Assembly (NCBI GenBank): GCA_949285905.1
Contig: CASDZV010000046.1
Location: forward strand, 1 to 64,000
DNA: 64,000 nt
Origin: an uncultured Spirochaetales bacterium
GTDB taxonomy: Bacteria > Spirochaetota > Spirochaetia > Sphaerochaetales > Sphaerochaetaceae
Direction: 5' to 3'
Under the pieces are notes generated by a model that was given only the letters and a program-made list of their open reading frames with translations, ran no database searches and was not told the DNA's origin. Both the position numbers and the translations under genes were made by a program. Shown here one piece after another: positions 8,477-16,912 of this stretch (position 1 is its first letter; every line of letters starts with the position of its first letter).

Positions 8477-9062
8477 TTGTCACTCCGAGGGCTCTCACTA
8501 CAGCCATCGACTGAGCAATATCAAGCTCTGCACCTTTAAGCTCTCTCATGTTTTCTGAAATAGTGATCCCATCAAGTGAAGAGTTATTGAAACTGATACC
8601 AGCTAAATGAGTATTACGGAATATTACATTAGCAAGGTCTGTATTCAGAATTTCCAGTTTCCTGTGACTGATTTCTGCAAAAGATGAATCCGGCATATCT
8701 GAATCAATGATTCTTGAATTATTAAATTGGGCGTGGTCGAATGTGATGTAACGGGCAGAAGCATTTACTATTTCAATCCGGCGCAACCTTGAAGAAGAGA
8801 AAGACACACCAGTCATTCTGCATGAACGGAACGTCACACGAAGGAGAGATGAATCTGAGAAATCCGCATTTGTGAAATCACATGAATCAAAAACAACATC
8901 AGTCAGTGTCGCTTTGCTGAATGCCGAGGCTGCAAACGAGACTGATGAAAATGAGGATGTGCGGATAATCAGATCGGAAAAATCCTCTCCATCATATGCT
9001 GTCCCATTTTCTTCAATGCATTCTGCATCTGAATCTGTCGAGATTGCGTCCCGGAGTGTCAT
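8466..9062 (-). CDS. Pentapeptide-repeat protein
   Basis: A 198-residue protein with about 20 tandem A(D/N)LXX-like pentapeptides between residues about 28 and 165 (for example SCDFTNADFSDSSLLRVTF), predicted to fold as a right-handed quadrilateral beta-helix. There is no signal peptide. Its ATG overlaps the hisIE stop codon (TGATG at 9064-9060), so it is translationally coupled to the his operon. Known pentapeptide proteins include gyrase-protecting DNA mimics (MfpA/Qnr), but most are uncharacterised. No link to histidine biosynthesis is known to me. Confidence 0.88.
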   Translation of the reverse strand: MTLRDAISTDSDAECIEENGTAYDGEDFSDLIIRTSSFSSVSFAASAFSKATLTDVVFDSCDFTNADFSDSSLLRVTFRSCRMTGVSFSSSRLRRIEIVNASARYITFDHAQFNNSRIIDSDMPDSSFAEISHRKLEILNTDLANVIFRNTHLAGISFNNSSLDGITISENMRELKGAELDIAQSMAVVRALGVTIIG

Positions 9063-9670
9063 CAGCGGGAGTGCCTTTCTTTAAGGACATCTATGACTTC
9101 AGAAAGCGTCGCATCCTTCTGGGCAAGAAGAACAAGGAAGTGATACATCAAATCAGCGCATTCTCCAAGAAACTGGTCCTTGTCATCATCTTTAGAGGCA
9201 ATAACAAGCTCCACAGCTTCCTCTCCAACCTTCTGTGCAATCCGGTTAAGACCACGTGAAAAAAGATGATTGGTATATGAGCCCTCAACAGGATTGGCTC
9301 TTCTGTCCCGGATGACAGATTCCAGATAGAAAAGGAACTCAGGAGAAGAGACCTCAGTCGGCTGATTTTCTTCTCCGAAGCAGGTATCAGCACCTGTATG
9401 GCAAACTGGACCGGAAGGGATCGCTTTCACAAGAAGAGTATCCCCATCACAATCAGCAAGAATCTCTCTCACCTGCAGGAAATTGCCGCTCGTCTCTCCC
9501 TTTGTCCATATGCGTCCGCGAGAGCGCGAGAAGAAGGTAACAAGACCACGGTCAAGTGTGAGCTTATAAGCCTCCTCATTCATATATCCAAGCATCAGCA
9601 CCTTTCTTGTGACTGCATCCTGAACGACTGCAGGAACAAGGCCGCCGCCTTTCTCAAAATCTATAGTCAT
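9062..9670 (-). CDS. hisIE: Bifunctional phosphoribosyl-AMP cyclohydrolase / phosphoribosyl-ATP pyrophosphatase
   Basis: The cytosolic enzyme for steps two and three of histidine synthesis. The N-terminal HisI domain (residues about 1-105) has DCDGDTLLVKAIPSGPVCHT and TCF with the zinc and magnesium ligands. The C-terminal HisE domain (about 110-202) has KVGEEAVELVIAS and a downstream ECADLMYH acidic motif. A fused HisIE of 202 residues is standard. GGAGGGGTT precedes ATG 9670. It is the last biosynthetic gene of the operon, 11 bp after hisF. Confidence 0.96.
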   Translation of the reverse strand: MTIDFEKGGGLVPAVVQDAVTRKVLMLGYMNEEAYKLTLDRGLVTFFSRSRGRIWTKGETSGNFLQVREILADCDGDTLLVKAIPSGPVCHTGADTCFGEENQPTEVSSPEFLFYLESVIRDRRANPVEGSYTNHLFSRGLNRIAQKVGEEAVELVIASKDDDKDQFLGECADLMYHFLVLLAQKDATLSEVIDVLKERHSR

Positions 9671-9681
9671 AACCCCTCCAC

Positions 9682-10443
9682 TTACCTGACCGGTATGCCG
9701 GACTGCCTGAGATAATCCTTCAGCTGGTGTATATCTATCTCATGAAAATGGAAAACAGAAGCCGCAAGTGCAGCATCAGCCATGCCATCTTCGAAAACAG
9801 TCCTGAAGTCATCCATTTTTCCCGCTCCGCCAGAGGCTATAACAGGAATATCAATATTACTGCTGATTATCCGGGTTAAGTCAACAGCAAAACCATCCTT
9901 CGTCCCATCCTTATCCATTGATGTCAGAAGAATTTCCCCAGCGCCTCTTAAAGAAGCTTCTCTCGCCCAGGAAAGCGCATCAAGACCTGTTGACGTACGC
10001 CCGCCATCAATAACTGCTTCATAACCAGAAGCCATAGAGCTCTTTGAACGCGCATCAAGAGCCAGCACTATACACTGGCTGCCGAATCTGGAGGAGAGCC
10101 TGTCAATCAAAGAAGGATCACGAACCGCAGCTGAATTGATTGAGATTTTGTCAGCGCCTGCCTCCAGAAGTCTTGCAACATCATCCTCTCCTCTTATCCC
10201 CCCGCCAACTGTAAACGGTATTGAAATGCGCTTCGCAATATTCTCCACAAGCTTTGTCATCGTGCCACGGTTCTCAACTGTTGCCGTGATATCCAGGAAC
10301 ACAAGCTCATCAGCTCCCTCTTCTGAGTAAAACTCCGCCAGATCAAGCGCAGATCCAGCGTCCCTGAGCTGCACGAAATTCACCCCTTTCACAGTGCGTC
10401 CGTCTTTCACATCAAGGCATGGGATTATTCTTTTCGCCAGCAT
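9682..10443 (-). CDS. hisF: Imidazole glycerol phosphate synthase cyclase subunit
   Basis: A 253-residue (beta/alpha)8 barrel. The catalytic aspartates lie in [15 protein letters not shown] (Asp11) and ALDARSK (near 130), and phosphate-binding Gly motifs (VGGGIRG, ASGGAG) are present. With HisH it converts PRFAR plus glutamine-derived ammonia into IGP and AICAR. GGAGG precedes ATG 10443, and the gene overlaps the hisA 3' end by 19 bp. Confidence 0.97.
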
Positions 10444-11150
10444 GAAGCCTCCTTCATCTCTGCAATTGTAATACGACCTTCGTAATATGCTTTCCCGACA
10501 ATAACCCCGTCAGCGCCCATATCATAAAGTGCTTTAAGGTCATCCATTGAAGAAACTCCGCCAGAAGCTATCAGGTTAAGATCAGCAACAGAAGCAAGAA
10601 GCTTCTCATAGAGCGCGAATGATGGCCCGGAAAGCATTCCATCATGTGCAATATCAGTGACAACAACGTCTCTTATTCCTTCTTCGGCAAATCTGGAGAC
10701 AAATGGAATTATGCTGATGTCCGTCGTTTCCATCCAGCCAGAAACAGCAACGGATTCTCCTCTGACATCGGATGAGAGTATTATGCGTCCTGGCCACTCT
10801 CTGCCCCAGCTGATGACTTCTTCCGGATCCTTTGCGGCTTTTGATCCGATATTCACTTTGTCAGCCCCCGCATTGAACGCCTCAAGAAGCGCACTTTTTG
10901 TCCTGACACCTCCTCCGAAATCTACAATGAGCCCCGTTCTGGACGCTATCGTTTCAAGAACCCGGAGATTATCCCCTCGTCCTGCAGCTGCATCAAGATC
11001 TACAAGATGAAGATATTCAAGCCCACCATCCTCAAAAGCCCTGGCAGTATCCAGCGCATCAAGACCATATGATGTTTTCCTGCTGTAATCGCCTTCGGAA
11101 AGCCGTACCGGAGAACCATCTATAAGATCAATTGCAGGTATTACTCTCAT
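10425..11150 (-). CDS. hisA: ProFAR isomerase (phosphoribosylformimino-AICAR-phosphate isomerase)
   Basis: The HisA barrel starts [21 protein letters not shown] at ATG 11150, overlapping the hisH stop by four bases (ATGA). The catalytic aspartates sit in AIDLIDG and [10 protein letters not shown], and [10 protein letters not shown] binds phosphate. It converts ProFAR to PRFAR. The usual length (241 residues) supports this start; the longer open frame only extends into hisH. Confidence 0.96.
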
Positions 11151-11737
11151 GTTTCCTCCAGAAACGACCGGAGCATCTGATCCCCCGCTTTTCCACTCTT
11201 CTCGGGATGAAACTGCAGACAATGGAAATTGTCCTTCCTAAGAGAAGCTGAGAAACGGATACCGCCATACTCCGTCACTGCTGAAGTGAACTCGGAAAGC
11301 GGCGCATAATACGAATGGACGAAGTAAACATACTCGCCTTCTGCAGTATGTCTGTAAACAGAATCATCAAGACATTCAATGGTATTCCATCCAACATGCG
11401 GGACCTTAAAACCCATTCCTTTAGGAAACAGCTTGACTCGCACCGGAAAGATTCCCAGACAATCTGTATCTCCTTCCTCGGATGATGAGCACATCAGCTG
11501 CATCCCCAGACAGATACCAAGGAACGGCTGCTTGAGAGAGCGGATGACATCGTCCAGCCCTTTTTCATGCAGATACTCCATTGCGTAAGAAGCTTCTCCG
11601 ACACCGGGAAAGATGACTTTATCTGCACTTTTCAGCACATTCTTATCATCTGTCAGAACCGCATCATACCCAAGACGATCAATGGCGTTCATGACAGAAA
11701 GGACATTGCCGGCATTATAGCGTATGACTGCAATCAT
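11147..11737 (-). CDS. hisH: Imidazole glycerol phosphate synthase glutaminase subunit
   Basis: A class I glutamine amidotransferase of 196 residues. The nucleophile is in GICLGMQLM (Cys near 77), and the His/Glu of the triad are in QFHPEKSG near the C-terminus. It supplies ammonia to HisF. AAGGGGATGCT precedes ATG 11737. It is linked by four-base overlaps to hisB upstream and hisA downstream. Confidence 0.96.
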   Translation of the reverse strand: MIAVIRYNAGNVLSVMNAIDRLGYDAVLTDDKNVLKSADKVIFPGVGEASYAMEYLHEKGLDDVIRSLKQPFLGICLGMQLMCSSSEEGDTDCLGIFPVRVKLFPKGMGFKVPHVGWNTIECLDDSVYRHTAEGEYVYFVHSYYAPLSEFTSAVTEYGGIRFSASLRKDNFHCLQFHPEKSGKAGDQMLRSFLEET

Positions 11738-12870
11738 AGCATCCCCTTTGTGCTGGCCACACGTGCATCCCCAGGGATACGGCGCACTGCCTTTCTCATA
11801 GCCCTGGCAAATGCCTTGAACAGAGCCTCAGCTGTATGATGGCTGTTACCACCTCTTGTTGCACTTAAGTACAGGTTACAACCGGACGCAGATGCAAAAG
11901 AACGGAAAAAATGCTTCATGAGCTCTGATGGGAATTCACCGATATACGGCACTGTGAATTCAACATCCCAGACAAGCTCTGGCCGAGACGAGAAATCAAT
12001 AGCAGCTGTTGCCACCGTATCATCCATCGTCACGATCTCGTAGCCATAGCGTTCGATGCCACGCTTGTCGCCGAGAGCCTTCCTCACAGCTTCCCCAAGA
12101 ACAAGCGCCGTGTCCTCTGCTGTATGATGCTCATCGATATAAAGGTCCCCATCTGCTTTGCCTTCAATATCAAAACGTGAATGCCTGACAACCTGAGAGA
12201 GCATATGATCGAAAAAACCGATTCCAGTTGAGACAGTTCCTTCTCCTGTGCCATCAAGATCAATGCTCATCGATATCTTAGTCTCCTTTGTGCTCCTCTC
12301 AACTGAAGCAGTTCTATGAGAGAGCGATTCATCTTCAACAAGATATGATGCTATATCAAGCCATGAAAAAGTCTTAAGCGCTATTGTATCCATAAGATCT
12401 TCAGGGATATCAAGTTCCTCATCAGTAATAAGAAATCCGCGGCAGCCCATGCTTCGGGCAAGGAGCATATCTGTAATACGGTCTCCGATCATAAACGAAG
12501 AGGCCATGTCATAACGCTCGCTGCGATAGCGGTCAATCATGGCAGTCCCAGGCTTGCGTGTCGGAAGATTCTCCTCTGGAAGCGATAGATCGATATTAAT
12601 GTCATCGAAAACGATTCCTTCGCCTCTGAGTGTTGTGAAAATACGTTCAGCAGGTCCTGAAAAGCCTTCATATGTGAATGCCCTTGTACCTACTCCATCC
12701 TGATTAGATACCATGACAAGAAGATAATCAGAACGCTTTGTTATCTCACGAAGGGCCTCAAAGACATGAGGGATATACTCGATGCTCTCATATGTATCGA
12801 CCTGCCGCTCTCGCACAATAACACCATCGCGATCGATGAAAAGAATCTTTTTCCTATCCCCTCCAGCCAT
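11734..12870 (-). CDS. hisB: Bifunctional histidinol-phosphatase / imidazoleglycerol-phosphate dehydratase
   Basis: A 378-residue fusion. The N-terminal HAD phosphatase (about 1-170) starts ILFIDRDGVIV and has SNQDGVGT and IGDRITDMLLA. The C-terminal IGP dehydratase (about 185-378) has GIGFFDHML, DEHHTAEDTALVLGEA and a later NSHHTAEALFKAFARA metal site. The zinc-loop Cys/His residues known in the E. coli HAD domain are absent here (LPEENLPTRKP in that region). AAGGAGG precedes the ATG. The fused form is typical of gamma-proteobacteria and Bacteroidota. Confidence 0.95.
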   Translation of the reverse strand: MAGGDRKKILFIDRDGVIVRERQVDTYESIEYIPHVFEALREITKRSDYLLVMVSNQDGVGTRAFTYEGFSGPAERIFTTLRGEGIVFDDINIDLSLPEENLPTRKPGTAMIDRYRSERYDMASSFMIGDRITDMLLARSMGCRGFLITDEELDIPEDLMDTIALKTFSWLDIASYLVEDESLSHRTASVERSTKETKISMSIDLDGTGEGTVSTGIGFFDHMLSQVVRHSRFDIEGKADGDLYIDEHHTAEDTALVLGEAVRKALGDKRGIERYGYEIVTMDDTVATAAIDFSSRPELVWDVEFTVPYIGEFPSELMKHFFRSFASASGCNLYLSATRGGNSHHTAEALFKAFARAMRKAVRRIPGDARVASTKGML

Positions 12871-13894
12871 TCATTGCCTCCTTAAGGGCCTCCATTTCTT
12901 TTTCAGACCCGATAGTAACCCTTATTGTATTCTCAAGCATCGGATCTGAAGACCTGTTGCGGACAACAATACCACGAGAAATAAGATAATCATACAATCT
13001 TGCTGCACTATCCACACGGAACAGTACGAAATTCGCCTCCGAAGGGAATACAGTCCTGACATACGGCAGCGTGCGGAGAAAGGATGAGAAGGCTTCCCTT
13101 CTCTCTATTGTCTCTTGCACTCTCTTTCGGACACTGCAATCATGAAGAGCTTCCAGCCCTGCCGCTTCAGCAGGCCTAGAAACATTGTATGGCGGTTTCA
13201 CTTTCATGAAAACCTGCTGGATTTCAGGACTTGATACCAGAACACCCAGACGCGCGCCGGCTTTACCATATGCTTTTGAGAATGTTCGCAGCACAACAAT
13301 TCTCGGATTATTCTCTATAGCGGAAACAGCGCTCTCATAATGCTCTGCGAAGTCACAGTATGCCTCATCAACAGCCGTAATGCCGCTATTCACTTCTGCA
13401 ATACGCCTGATTGTACTCAGCGGATATACACGTCCGGTAGGGTTATTAGGCGAGCATATAAAGACAATCTTTGGACGCTTTTCCATTATTGCACTTACAA
13501 TTGCATCCTCGTCCAGGTTCAAATCAGATGTAAGAGGAATGTCAATGACACCCACATTGGACGTGCGGGCAAAAACAGAATAAGTACCATATGTCGGCCG
13601 TTCTATCATTACGCAGTCTTTTCCGGGGGCGCAGAACATGCGTATGAGAAGATCTATGACCTCATCTGAGCCATTTCCTATAGCACTCATGCTGTATGGT
13701 ATCCCCATTACACGCTCCATCTCCTTTCTAAGCTCTCTTGCCAGCGGATCGGGGTATCTGTTTATGCCGTCATTGCCACCAATCCAGCTTTCATTAGCAT
13801 CAAGAAGGATATCCGCCTTGCCTGAAAACTCGCTCCGTGCAGAGCTATATGGCACCAGAGAACGTATCCACGGATTAAGTAATTCATCAATCAT
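12854..13894 (-). CDS. hisC: Histidinol-phosphate aminotransferase
   Basis: A 346-residue fold-type I PLP aminotransferase. The cofactor lysine lies in RTFSKAYGKAGARLGVL, preceded by NNPTGRV and TAVDEAYCDFA. It converts imidazole-acetol phosphate to histidinol phosphate. It overlaps hisD by 8 bp and hisB by 17 bp, consistent with tight operon coupling. Confidence 0.95.
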   Translation of the reverse strand: MIDELLNPWIRSLVPYSSARSEFSGKADILLDANESWIGGNDGINRYPDPLARELRKEMERVMGIPYSMSAIGNGSDEVIDLLIRMFCAPGKDCVMIERPTYGTYSVFARTSNVGVIDIPLTSDLNLDEDAIVSAIMEKRPKIVFICSPNNPTGRVYPLSTIRRIAEVNSGITAVDEAYCDFAEHYESAVSAIENNPRIVVLRTFSKAYGKAGARLGVLVSSPEIQQVFMKVKPPYNVSRPAEAAGLEALHDCSVRKRVQETIERREAFSSFLRTLPYVRTVFPSEANFVLFRVDSAARLYDYLISRGIVVRNRSSDPMLENTIRVTIGSEKEMEALKEAMNGWRG

Positions 13895-15170
13895 CTGAAA
13901 GCCTCACTTTCACAGCATAGCTATGTGCTTCCAGCCCCTCTGCCTCTGCAAGCGTCTGGATAACAGGCCCGAGATTTCCTAGACCTTCCCGAGTTATCTG
14001 CTGCACCGTGATTTTCTTTATGAACGAATCAACAGAGACACCGGAAGAAGAGCGGGCCCAGCCTGAAGTCGGGAGTGTATGATTAGTTCCGGAAGCGTAA
14101 TCACCAGCGGATTCAGGTGTCCATGACCCGAGAAAAACTGATCCGGCATTCTCAACTCCTCTGAGTATTGCGTCCGGGTTCTCCGTCGATATAATCAGAT
14201 GCTCCGGTGCATACTCATTGACAGCATCCACAAGTGCCTCATCTGAATAAAGAGGGAACGCATATGAATGGGAAAGCGACGGAAGCATATATTCATGCCG
14301 GCCTATTCTCTCCAGCTCTTTCCCGATAGCCTCATCAACATTTCTGTAAATACATTCAGCTTCTTCAGGATTGCCAGCTCTCACAAGAAGCATTGCCTGA
14401 CTGTCCTTGCCATGCTCTGCCTGCGAGAGAAGGTCAGCCGCAGCTGCTGTCGCTGAGGATGTTCTGTCTACTACAACCATCACTTCCGATGGACCGGCAA
14501 GCATATCTATCGCAACAACTGATGATATCTGACGTTTTGCCTCTGTCACATAACTGTTGCCAGGCCCGAAAATCTTGTCACATCGTTCAACACTCTCTGT
14601 CCCATAAGCGAGAGCTGCAATGGCCTGTGCACCACCGACTTTAAGCACTCTGCTCACTCCAGCTTCCTTTGCGGCGTAGAGAATCACAGGACTCACCTTA
14701 CCATTTCTGGCGGGAGTTGCAAGAGTGATACTGCGGCATCCCGCAACACGAGCTGGAACACTGAGCATCAGAACAGTAGAGAAAAGAGGAGCAGTCCCAC
14801 CGGGAATATAAAGGCCGACTCTTGAGATAGGGACAATCTTCCGCCAGCAGCGGACACCCTTTTCAGTCTCAACATCCTCTCCTTCAGGCATTTCAGATTC
14901 ATGAAATCTCCGGATGTTGACAGCTGCATGCCTGATTGCAGCTTTCAGATTTTCAGGCACCAGGCCACAAGCTTCCTCGATTTCATCATCTGTCGCGAAA
15001 AGGGAATCGAGATTGGAATTATCAAAGCGGAGAGCATAGTCACGGAGAGCAGAATCCCCCCGCGCCTTCACATCTTCAATAATCTTCCTCACACTCTCCT
15101 CTATTTCCACATTCCCGTCATTCGGACGGCGGAGAAGAGTCTTGTCGTAATCAGTGAATTTCAGATACAT
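13887..15170 (-). CDS. hisD: Histidinol dehydrogenase
   Basis: A zinc-dependent NAD enzyme of 427 residues that performs the last two oxidations to L-histidine. Visible family signatures are GLYIPGGTAPLFSTVLMLS, FGPGNSYVTEAKRQ, DMLAGPSEVMVV and PEHLIIST. ATG 15170 is preferred over the GTG at 15176 because the GGAG ribosome site is correctly spaced for it. The hisG stop overlaps this region. Confidence 0.96.
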   Translation of the reverse strand: MYLKFTDYDKTLLRRPNDGNVEIEESVRKIIEDVKARGDSALRDYALRFDNSNLDSLFATDDEIEEACGLVPENLKAAIRHAAVNIRRFHESEMPEGEDVETEKGVRCWRKIVPISRVGLYIPGGTAPLFSTVLMLSVPARVAGCRSITLATPARNGKVSPVILYAAKEAGVSRVLKVGGAQAIAALAYGTESVERCDKIFGPGNSYVTEAKRQISSVVAIDMLAGPSEVMVVVDRTSSATAAAADLLSQAEHGKDSQAMLLVRAGNPEEAECIYRNVDEAIGKELERIGRHEYMLPSLSHSYAFPLYSDEALVDAVNEYAPEHLIISTENPDAILRGVENAGSVFLGSWTPESAGDYASGTNHTLPTSGWARSSSGVSVDSFIKKITVQQITREGLGNLGPVIQTLAEAEGLEAHSYAVKVRLSDD

Positions 15171-15172
15171 AC

Positions 15173-16033
15173 TCACTCCGTCATCTTCTCAATATTCATA
15201 ACAAGGATACCTTCTGCTCCCAGTCTCCTAAGCTCTTCAAAAACAGCCCAGAAACGATTCTCATCAACTGCGGACTGCACAGAAACCCAGTTTTTATCCA
15301 TCAATGGCGTAACTGTCGGACTCTTCATTCCGCCGATGATAGCGGCCGCCTCCTCAAGCTTATCTGAAGGAAGATTGAATAAGATATATTTCTGATGCCG
15401 GGCAAGCATGACAGCATCGATGCGTTCAAGAAGGCGATTAAGAAGCACACGCTTCTCGTCTGACATGTCAGAACGGGCTATCATGACAGCTGACGAGCGA
15501 TAAATGCACTCAACCTCTTCCAATCCGTTCATCTTCAGTGTTGTTCCAGTGGAAACCAGATCAGCAATCGCATCCGCGATACCGACATCGACTGTAATCT
15601 CAACAGAACCAGATACAACGACTATCTGGGCATTCACCCCGTTTTTATTAAGCACATCCGAAAGAATTCTGGGATATGATGTGGCAATTCGTTTGCCTTC
15701 CAGCGATGAAAGATCTTTATAAACAAAACCATGGGGTACTGCAATCGAGAGCCTGCAGGAGGCAAACTTCAGGTCACGTACTACAGAGAGGCTGATACCG
15801 CTCTCATCATATTCATTCCTGCCGACAATACCGATATCTGCGACACCATCAGCAACGTACTGCGGTATGTCATCATCGCGTACAAAGAGGAAATCCAGGG
15901 GGAATCCCGATGCAGAGGCTTTCAGCACACGGCTGTCTGCATTTACATCAATCCCGCATGACCGGATGAGATCGAGACTCTTTTCAGAAAGTCGTCCGCT
16001 TTTCTGAATGGCGATACTGATTGTGCTTTCCAT
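15173..16033 (-). CDS. hisG: ATP phosphoribosyltransferase, long form
   Basis: The first enzyme of histidine synthesis (286 residues), starting MESTISIAIQKSGRLSEKS after CGAGGAGGAGT. Catalytic-domain motifs include DIGIVGRNEYDE and the PRPP loop DLVSTGTTLKMNGL. The C-terminal regulatory domain (about 210-286) is present, so this is the long, histidine-feedback-inhibited form that does not need HisZ. The frame open to 16084 runs into the attenuator and is not used. Confidence 0.95.
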   Translation of the reverse strand: MESTISIAIQKSGRLSEKSLDLIRSCGIDVNADSRVLKASASGFPLDFLFVRDDDIPQYVADGVADIGIVGRNEYDESGISLSVVRDLKFASCRLSIAVPHGFVYKDLSSLEGKRIATSYPRILSDVLNKNGVNAQIVVVSGSVEITVDVGIADAIADLVSTGTTLKMNGLEEVECIYRSSAVMIARSDMSDEKRVLLNRLLERIDAVMLARHQKYILFNLPSDKLEEAAAIIGGMKSPTVTPLMDKNWVSVQSAVDENRFWAVFEELRRLGAEGILVMNIEKMTE

Positions 16034-16045
16034 ACTCCTCCTCGG

Positions 16046-16077
16046 AAAGAAAAAGACCTCCCGCCAATGGGGAGGCC
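16046..16077 (-). terminator. his attenuator terminator hairpin
   Basis: On the transcribed strand GGCCTCCC (16077-16070), a 7-base loop and GGGAGGTC (16062-16055) form an 8-bp stem with one G-U pair, followed at once by TTTTTCTTT. It sits between the leader and hisG, only 12 bases before the hisG start codon. An intrinsic terminator inside a 5' leader implies attenuation. Confidence 0.75.
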
Positions 16078-16130
16078 GTATCATAAGGAACCCATCATGG
16101 CGCTGTCATGACTAAAGCAGGCTATGATGG
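16063..16130 (-). promoter_or_regulatory. Alternative leader structures of the his attenuator (segments 1:2 and 2:3)
   Basis: Segment 1 (CCATCAT, 16130-16124), which includes two leader His codons, is fully complementary to ATGATGG in segment 2 (16098-16092). Segment 2 (GCCATGATGGG, 16101-16091) can instead pair with segment 3 (CCCCATTGGC, 16072-16063) through GCCA/TGGC and ATGGG/CCCAT. Segment 3 is the 5' arm of the terminator. A ribosome stalled on the His codons would cover segment 1, free segment 2 and block the terminator. The logic is the classical one; the pairings were found by eye. Confidence 0.65.
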
Positions 16131-16153
16131 CTATGTCCGTTTCTTCTTTCCAT
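16112..16153 (-). CDS. hisL: Histidine leader peptide (hisL-like)
   Basis: A 13-codon frame reads MERRNGHSHHSLL followed by TAG: three His codons within four, placed just before mutually exclusive hairpins and hisG. The frame stays open upstream, so initiation could also be at 16168 (18 codons, MYRFH before this core) or 16210 (32 codons, five His in all). None of the three ATGs has a convincing Shine-Dalgarno sequence, which is the weakest part of the case. Confidence 0.6.
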   Translation of the reverse strand: MERRNGHSHHSLL

Positions 16154-16330
16154 GTGAAAACGGTACATGATGAGAAAAGCATAGTCAACAGAATGAATAC
16201 CGCGATTCATTTAAATTTCATTAAAACAGAGAGAAGCAATGCTCATGCAAATCTGTATCATCACAGGCATGGCAATAACGAGAACCTAATATCAGAATAC
16301 AGAATATACGGAACGCAGCCTGCTCAGCTT

Positions 16331-16912
16331 TCAGAAATCCGTGCTGCTGAAACTGTCATTGTGCTTTCTGAATTTTCTGCTGTAGACAGCTGAACTGATC
16401 GCACCGTAGATCATAAGCGCTCCGGAGGCGAAAAGAATAGCAGCGAATAGCGTCATAACAGCACCTGTAAGAAAGTTAGGAAACAGGAACAGTATTACTG
16501 CAAATACAAATGAAAGTATCGTCTCAAGCCCCAGTCCGCTGACCATCACACTTCTGTTTGAGAGGAATATCAGGTCTACAAGATCAACGATTCCAGTAAT
16601 AAGGAACGCCGCCGCAATAATGTAAACAAGAACTGTCGGAATGAGTGTCGGCGCTGCAATTGCAATGATGATCGTAATAATCCCGAAAATCATATTCAGA
16701 AGCGCCTTTCCCATCGAGACATTGCGTATACTCTGCCAGAGGACATCTTTCAGCTTATAAGAAGCTAAAAGCGTTCGTACACCATCAATGACGAGGTATA
16801 TGCCGAACGCAGAGATGACAACTGTCAGGAATCCGGAAGGTCGGATTATCATATACAGTCCGATGAATATCATCAGAAGACCGGAAATCATTAATGGAAT
16901 GTACCTTTTCAT
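16331..16912 (-). CDS. DUF308 / HdeD-like integral membrane protein
   Basis: A 193-residue protein that is almost entirely six transmembrane helices (IPLMISGLLMIFIGLYMII at the N-terminus; GIITIIIAIAAPTLIPTVLV in the middle). It has the repeated small-residue pattern of the DUF308 family, which includes E. coli HdeD of the acid-resistance island. The short polar C-terminus ends KHNDSFSSTDF. Its function here is unknown. The 16154-16330 gap on its 3' side holds the upstream part of the his leader and probably that promoter. Confidence 0.8.
   Translation of the reverse strand: MKRYIPLMISGLLMIFIGLYMIIRPSGFLTVVISAFGIYLVIDGVRTLLASYKLKDVLWQSIRNVSMGKALLNMIFGIITIIIAIAAPTLIPTVLVYIIAAAFLITGIVDLVDLIFLSNRSVMVSGLGLETILSFVFAVILFLFPNFLTGAVMTLFAAILFASGALMIYGAISSAVYSRKFRKHNDSFSSTDF

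Follow-up and report, generated by a model that had tools for sequence, protein, structure and literature searches.

A putative his operon attenuator with a predicted leaderless leader peptide, conserved in five families of Spirochaetia

The his operon and the region preceding hisG

The window analysed here (64,000 nt) comes from an uncultured Spirochaetales bacterium of the gut whose genome amounts to 2.35 Mb in 89 contigs. On its minus strand lies a his operon with the gene order hisG-hisD-hisC-hisB-hisH-hisA-hisF-hisIE, running from 16033 down to 9062. The first gene, hisG (15173..16033, start codon ATG at 16033-16031), encodes a long-form ATP phosphoribosyltransferase that scored above the cut-offs of TIGR00070 and TIGR03455, with 1h3d as the nearest solved structure by sequence match. 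It is preceded by the Shine-Dalgarno sequence GAGGAGG (16036..16042) and followed by the remainder of the operon (9062..15176), in which hisB is bifunctional and hisD, hisC, hisH, hisA and hisF were assigned by reading the translations. A search of 100 related genomes found HisG in 84 of them. The nearest named relatives were uncultured Spirochaetales and Spirochaetaceae MAGs, followed by Sphaerochaeta sp. S2, Sphaerochaeta sp. UBA8956 and one Sphaerochaetaceae MAG. The Sphaerochaetaceae lie within the Spirochaetota, and these close relatives confirm the probable spirochaete proposed in the initial annotation of this DNA.

The 120 nt located 5' of hisG contain, on the same strand, a leader ORF, a pairing segment (segment 2), an intrinsic terminator with its U-tract, and the Shine-Dalgarno sequence of hisG. 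The leader ORF (16112..16153) has 13 codons and a stop (ATG GAA AGA AGA AAC GGA CAT AGC CAT CAT AGC CTG CTT TAG) and encodes the peptide MERRNGHSHHSLL, with the regulatory codons CAT AGC CAT CAT (His-Ser-His-His) at 16124..16135. Segment 2 (CGCCAUGAUGGG, 16091..16102) has two alternative partners, the His codons and the terminator apex. The terminator hairpin, made of segments 3 and 4 (GGCCTCCCCATTGGCGGGAGGTC, 16055..16077), is followed by TTTTTCTTT, and its U-tract (TTTTTCTTTC, 16045..16054) ends about 12 nt before the ATG of hisG. Segment 3 (CCCAUUGGCG, 16062..16071), the antiterminator partner of segment 2, corresponds to the upper 5' arm and the loop of the terminator. The protector pairing joins segment 1, CCAUCAU (16130-16124), to AUGAUGG (16098-16092), while duplex prediction gave an antiterminator of 10 bp with a 2-nt bulge, in which CGCCA and AUGGG (16102-16098 and 16095-16091) pair with CCCAUUGGCG (16071-16062). 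The initial annotation had described a short His-Ser-His-His frame, a hairpin involving the His codons, a competing antiterminator and a GC-rich terminator with a U-tract, in the correct order; all were present, the frame on the minus strand at 16153-16112, and their coordinates hold.

Conservation, co-variation and predicted switching

An ORF with 3 His in 4 codons was found in 29 of 3000 dinucleotide shuffles (1%) of the 230-nt region preceding this hisG, and the whole 177-nt leader folded just moderately better than its shuffles (z -2.0). It is therefore conservation, and not the folding energy of a single sequence, that carries the proof of the attenuator. We read the upstream DNA of 52 loci from the Sphaerochaetaceae and four other families of Spirochaetia whose HisG was at least 54% identical, and found that an ATG-started ORF with clustered His codons, together with a terminator 5' of hisG, was kept in 50 of them; one leader (L038) contained two His codons only. 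Two of the 52 related loci (L019 and L026) had no leader 5' of hisG, and no leader of this type was found in other spirochaetes at loci with more distant HisG types. L019 and L026 belong to the same genus as the bacterium of the window, and their hisG directly follows membrane-protein genes resembling the one at 16331-16912 of the window, the leader having been lost or moved.

Six more leaders were taken from named genomes, and the leader counts given below refer to a set of 56. In their 230-nt upstream stretches, an ORF with 3 His in 4 codons was present in 55 of the 56, compared with 0.4 expected from shuffles. The spirochaete leaders contained three to six His codons, the distance from the ATG to the first of them varied from 3 to 10 codons but was invariably in frame, and an intrinsic terminator preceded hisG throughout. 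This in-frame spacing is preserved and a leaderless start is predicted (see below); the ORF may be translated.

Duplex prediction gave segment 2 the same partner in every leader, namely the terminator loop with the upper 5' arm, although the sequences involved differ widely: CCAGAAcAGG with CCTTTCTGG in L029, GAAGTGCG with CGCATTTC in L046, L049 and L051, and GTGACA with TGTCAC in L039. The protector hairpin was clear in the leader of the window and weak in several relatives. Because the terminator was gapped inconsistently when 24 leaders were aligned with MAFFT, the test of co-variation relied on exchanging segments between leaders and not on column counts, after removal of redundancy at three identity cut-offs (34, 20 and 14 leaders) and with 20,000 permutations. 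The pairing of segment 2 with its own terminator beat the permutations (p 5e-5; z -6.4, -5.2 and -4.5 for 34, 20 and 14 leaders, respectively), and about 3 kcal/mol was lost when it was offered the terminator of another leader. His codons and alternative pairings were thus both kept among homologous leaders, the opposite of the outcome that the initial annotation had named as contrary to its reading.

Further evidence was obtained by folding the 56 leaders with the ribosome-covered bases blocked and the polymerase placed just beyond the terminator loop. Segments 2 and 3 formed on average 11.7 pairs when a ribosome was stalled on the His codons, 3.5 on ribosome-free RNA and 4.6 when the ribosome had reached the stop codon, in which last case the terminator formed in 54 of the 56 leaders. 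In the leader of the window the corresponding values were 8.9, 0.0 and 5.5, and the His codons were paired with segment 2 when no ribosome was present. The 5.5 residual pairs indicate that a ribosome at the stop codon would block segment 2 in part only, because it is 9 nt away (median over the leaders, 3 nt). L025, L027 and L049 were among the relatives with little pairing between His codons and segment 2 or with a small difference between the stalled and stop states. The alternative-structure predictions therefore switch as the model requires, depending on whether the ribosome sits on the His codons or at the stop, which corresponds to the classical logic of four segments. For the complete leader of the window, however, the terminator remained the fold of lowest energy in all states, including that with a stalled ribosome (-23.3 kcal/mol), so that antitermination would have to be kinetic and co-transcriptional.

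Promoter, predicted start and proposed mechanism

A -35 element, TTGACT (16183..16188), and a -10 element, TACCGT (16160..16165), are separated by a 17-nt spacer on the minus strand, the second of them ending 6 nt before the leader ATG. TTGAC precedes the leader ATG by 35-37 nt in 53 of the 56 leaders. A TA...T hexamer ends about 6 nt before this ATG, as TACCGT in much of the genus to which the bacterium of the window belongs, and its T, A and T were kept in about 82-84% of the leaders when these were aligned at the ATG. The ATG was itself chosen in the search, and it sits at this fixed distance from the promoter in the same 53 of 56. From the positions of both elements and the usual spacing of bacterial promoters, transcription is predicted to start on the A of the leader AUG (16153). 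The mean Shine-Dalgarno energy was -2.2 kcal/mol before the leader ATG versus -10.7 kcal/mol before hisG; a Shine-Dalgarno sequence preceded hisG in 55 of the 56 leaders and was usually missing 5' of the leader ATG. The leader transcript is thus probably leaderless, starting at the AUG, in which case no ribosome site is expected. The initial annotation had seen weak points in the missing ribosome site and the unassigned promoter, both of which find a likely answer here by deduction from TTGACT, TACCGT and the start at 16153; its proviso that a start downstream of 16153 would speak against the attenuator is not contradicted by the predicted start, which only just satisfies it.

The same attenuator could be leadered: transcription would begin further upstream, and the ORF would be translated either within a longer 5'UTR or by way of an in-frame start codon upstream of it. 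The frame of the window is indeed open from in-frame ATGs at about 16210 and 16168, and three leaders (L039, L052 and L080) do not have the TTGAC spacing, two of which (L039 and L080) carry Shine-Dalgarno-like sites (-12.1 and -7.4) and provide a natural contrast to the leaderless ones. However, the upstream frames are not common to all relatives, unlike the ATG located 35-37 nt after TTGAC, and most leader ATGs have no preceding Shine-Dalgarno sequence, which makes a leadered transcript improbable. We give still less credit to a minor promoter within the leader, formed by ATGACA at 16109 and TATGAT ending at 16080, from which transcripts would start within the terminator and allow histidine-independent expression beside or instead of attenuation: its boxes match the consensus at 10 of 12 positions, but one such site was found versus 2.4 expected by chance, and the alignment of the leaders does not show evident conservation of the boxes.

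No Rfam family reached its gathering score in the window, no his leader was detected between 15950 and 16350 even at E values up to 5, and the T-box family had no match in the leader at gathering or permissive thresholds. The HisR palindrome TTTAnnnnnnTAAA, an operator consensus taken from PMC9413887, occurred in none of the 56 promoters, and a loose version of its TrpR-like form in 2 of the 56. It is accordingly hardly credible that the operon obeys a different histidine sensor, either a T-box or a repressor of the HisR/TrpR type, and that the His ORF is incidental: the genome does contain a TrpR-like gene, but its product falls below the curated cut-offs of both the TrpR and the YerC models, and an incidental His ORF would not be conserved.

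We consider it very probable that the his operon is governed by ribosome-mediated transcription attenuation, and that the leader peptide involved is leaderless. The initial annotation had already proposed a ribosome-mediated histidine attenuator, a reading that conservation, co-variation and predicted switching support and strengthen. To what was observed or computed (the parts, their order, their conservation and co-variation, and the switching predicted by folding), the model adds a start at the AUG, leaderless initiation and a response to histidine, which we infer. RNA polymerase would start at the AUG at 16153 or no more than one base away from it, and this 5'-terminal AUG would be the loading site of a ribosome. 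When charged His-tRNA is scarce, the ribosome would stall on the His codons and cover segment 1, leaving segment 2 available to capture the upper arm and loop of the terminator during their synthesis; the terminator would then fail and hisGDCBHAFI would be transcribed. With ample His-tRNA, the ribosome would reach the stop codon and block the 5' part of segment 2, the terminator would form and transcription would end near 16046. Without translation, segment 1 would pair with segment 2, and the terminator would form as well.

Related attenuators and leaderless genes

The E. coli his leader peptide contains seven His codons, versus three to six in the spirochaete leaders. Three proteins of the operon described here (HisG, HisB and HisIE) belong to the E. 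coli type. Its attenuation mechanism would be that of the hisL leaders of E. coli, Salmonella and other Proteobacteria (summarized in PMC9413887), in which hisG of hisGDCBHAFI is likewise preceded by a leader peptide with His codons, by competing hairpins and by a terminator. In contrast with them, the present leader belongs to another phylum, has no Rfam match and a predicted leaderless start, and its antiterminator is predicted to pair with the apex of the terminator.

Leaderless leader peptides have been described elsewhere. The RNA of Sinorhizobium meliloti trpL begins at the AUG of a leader ORF of 14 codons and undergoes ribosome-dependent attenuation (PMC7298713). The his leader is predicted to be similar in both respects; the start of trpL was mapped by experiment, and trpL senses Trp and belongs to Alphaproteobacteria. 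Transcription of Corynebacterium glutamicum ilvBNC starts one nucleotide from the leader ATG (ilvL) and is subject to translation-dependent attenuation (PMC11857589). This start next to the leader ATG is also what is predicted here, whereas ilvBNC responds to branched-chain amino acids in Actinobacteria and follows a three-hairpin model. The features that characterize trpL and ilvL, namely an AUG start and no Shine-Dalgarno sequence, were found here too, and a 5' end at the AUG is predicted by promoter spacing in 53 of the 56 leaders. In Firmicutes, predicted his attenuators comprise a leader ORF with three to five His codons, a terminator and an antiterminator before his genes; these elements recur here in another lineage, and a leaderless start is not described in the parts of the two sources consulted (PMC9413887; PMC2965389).

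Our literature search found no description of such an attenuator in spirochaetes; subscription journals lay outside this search, and priority is therefore uncertain. As far as we found, the phylum and the leaderless his version are new, the mechanism itself and leaderless leader peptides being already known. Overall, we regard this as a his attenuator whose conservation spans five families, in which the leader peptide is predicted to be leaderless and the antiterminator to invade the terminator from its top. Within the literature searched, it extends leader-peptide attenuation to the Spirochaetota. A leaderless leader peptide needs no ribosome-binding site, and searches that require one would miss such attenuators in lineages rich in leaderless mRNAs. 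Because leadered versions (L039 and L080) occur naturally beside leaderless ones, what leaderless initiation contributes to attenuation can be tested directly.

Among the loci returned, the nearest HisG relatives outside spirochaetes were those of Bacteroidota (50-55% identity). Most of the Bacteroidota loci returned (L090-L149) had a His-rich leader ORF 5' of hisG. These leaders are of the same kind as those of spirochaete hisG and differ from them by their TAnnTTTG promoters, with a distance from box to ATG of 17-20 nt in Flavobacteriia and 6-10 nt in many Cytophagia. Clues for leader-peptide attenuation have been reported in Flavobacterium psychrophilum (PMC9723704). From the shorter distance, many Cytophagia His leaders may be leaderless too, and leaderless His leaders may be common to two phyla. 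A bolder proposal, which we regard as unlikely, is that the leaderless start is part of the sensor, and that the attenuator was kept or passed with a portable hisGDCBHAFI between Bacteroidota and Spirochaetota. The switch would then read the initiation state as well as His-tRNA charging, because intact 70S ribosomes and a suitable balance of initiation factors are needed to initiate at a 5'-terminal AUG.

The leaderless layout was also found elsewhere. The pattern TTGAC-N17-19-TAnnnT-N5-7-ATG occurred 30 times in the genome of the window (L151-L180), versus 7 times for a reversed control, an approximately fourfold excess. About half of the ATGs concerned open long ORFs, which include, as named by reading translations, recO, rlmE, aroF and the TrpR-like gene. 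Leaderless genes are thus probably common in this lineage. For aroF (DAHP synthase), 15 of 23 relatives across Spirochaetia, other families included (L231-L256), carry a TTGAC box placed 35-38 nt upstream of the ATG, and aroF is probably another conserved leaderless gene. Leaderless mRNAs are common in the spirochaete Leptospira interrogans, in which about 440 mRNAs with a 5'UTR of less than 10 nt have been mapped experimentally (PMC5243855).

A class-wide scan for TTGAC-N29-32-ATG combined with CAYCAYCAY retrieved several hisG leaders and was too loose, most listed matches being chance-like; a scan for leaders with runs of Trp codons was likewise too loose, with listed matches that mostly look like chance. 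A search with a trpE model did not find trpE in the genome of the window or in three relatives, and leuA seems to be an internal gene of an operon that is not preceded by its own leader. The TrpR-like repressor gene has a leaderless-type promoter (L172, contig C66, 6276-6314). On another contig of the same genome (L155, contig C20), an ORF of 14 codons with the leaderless-type layout, MSRGGVSLRSYPRT, is located about 70 nt 5' of a gene whose translation resembles a thiamine-binding transport protein.
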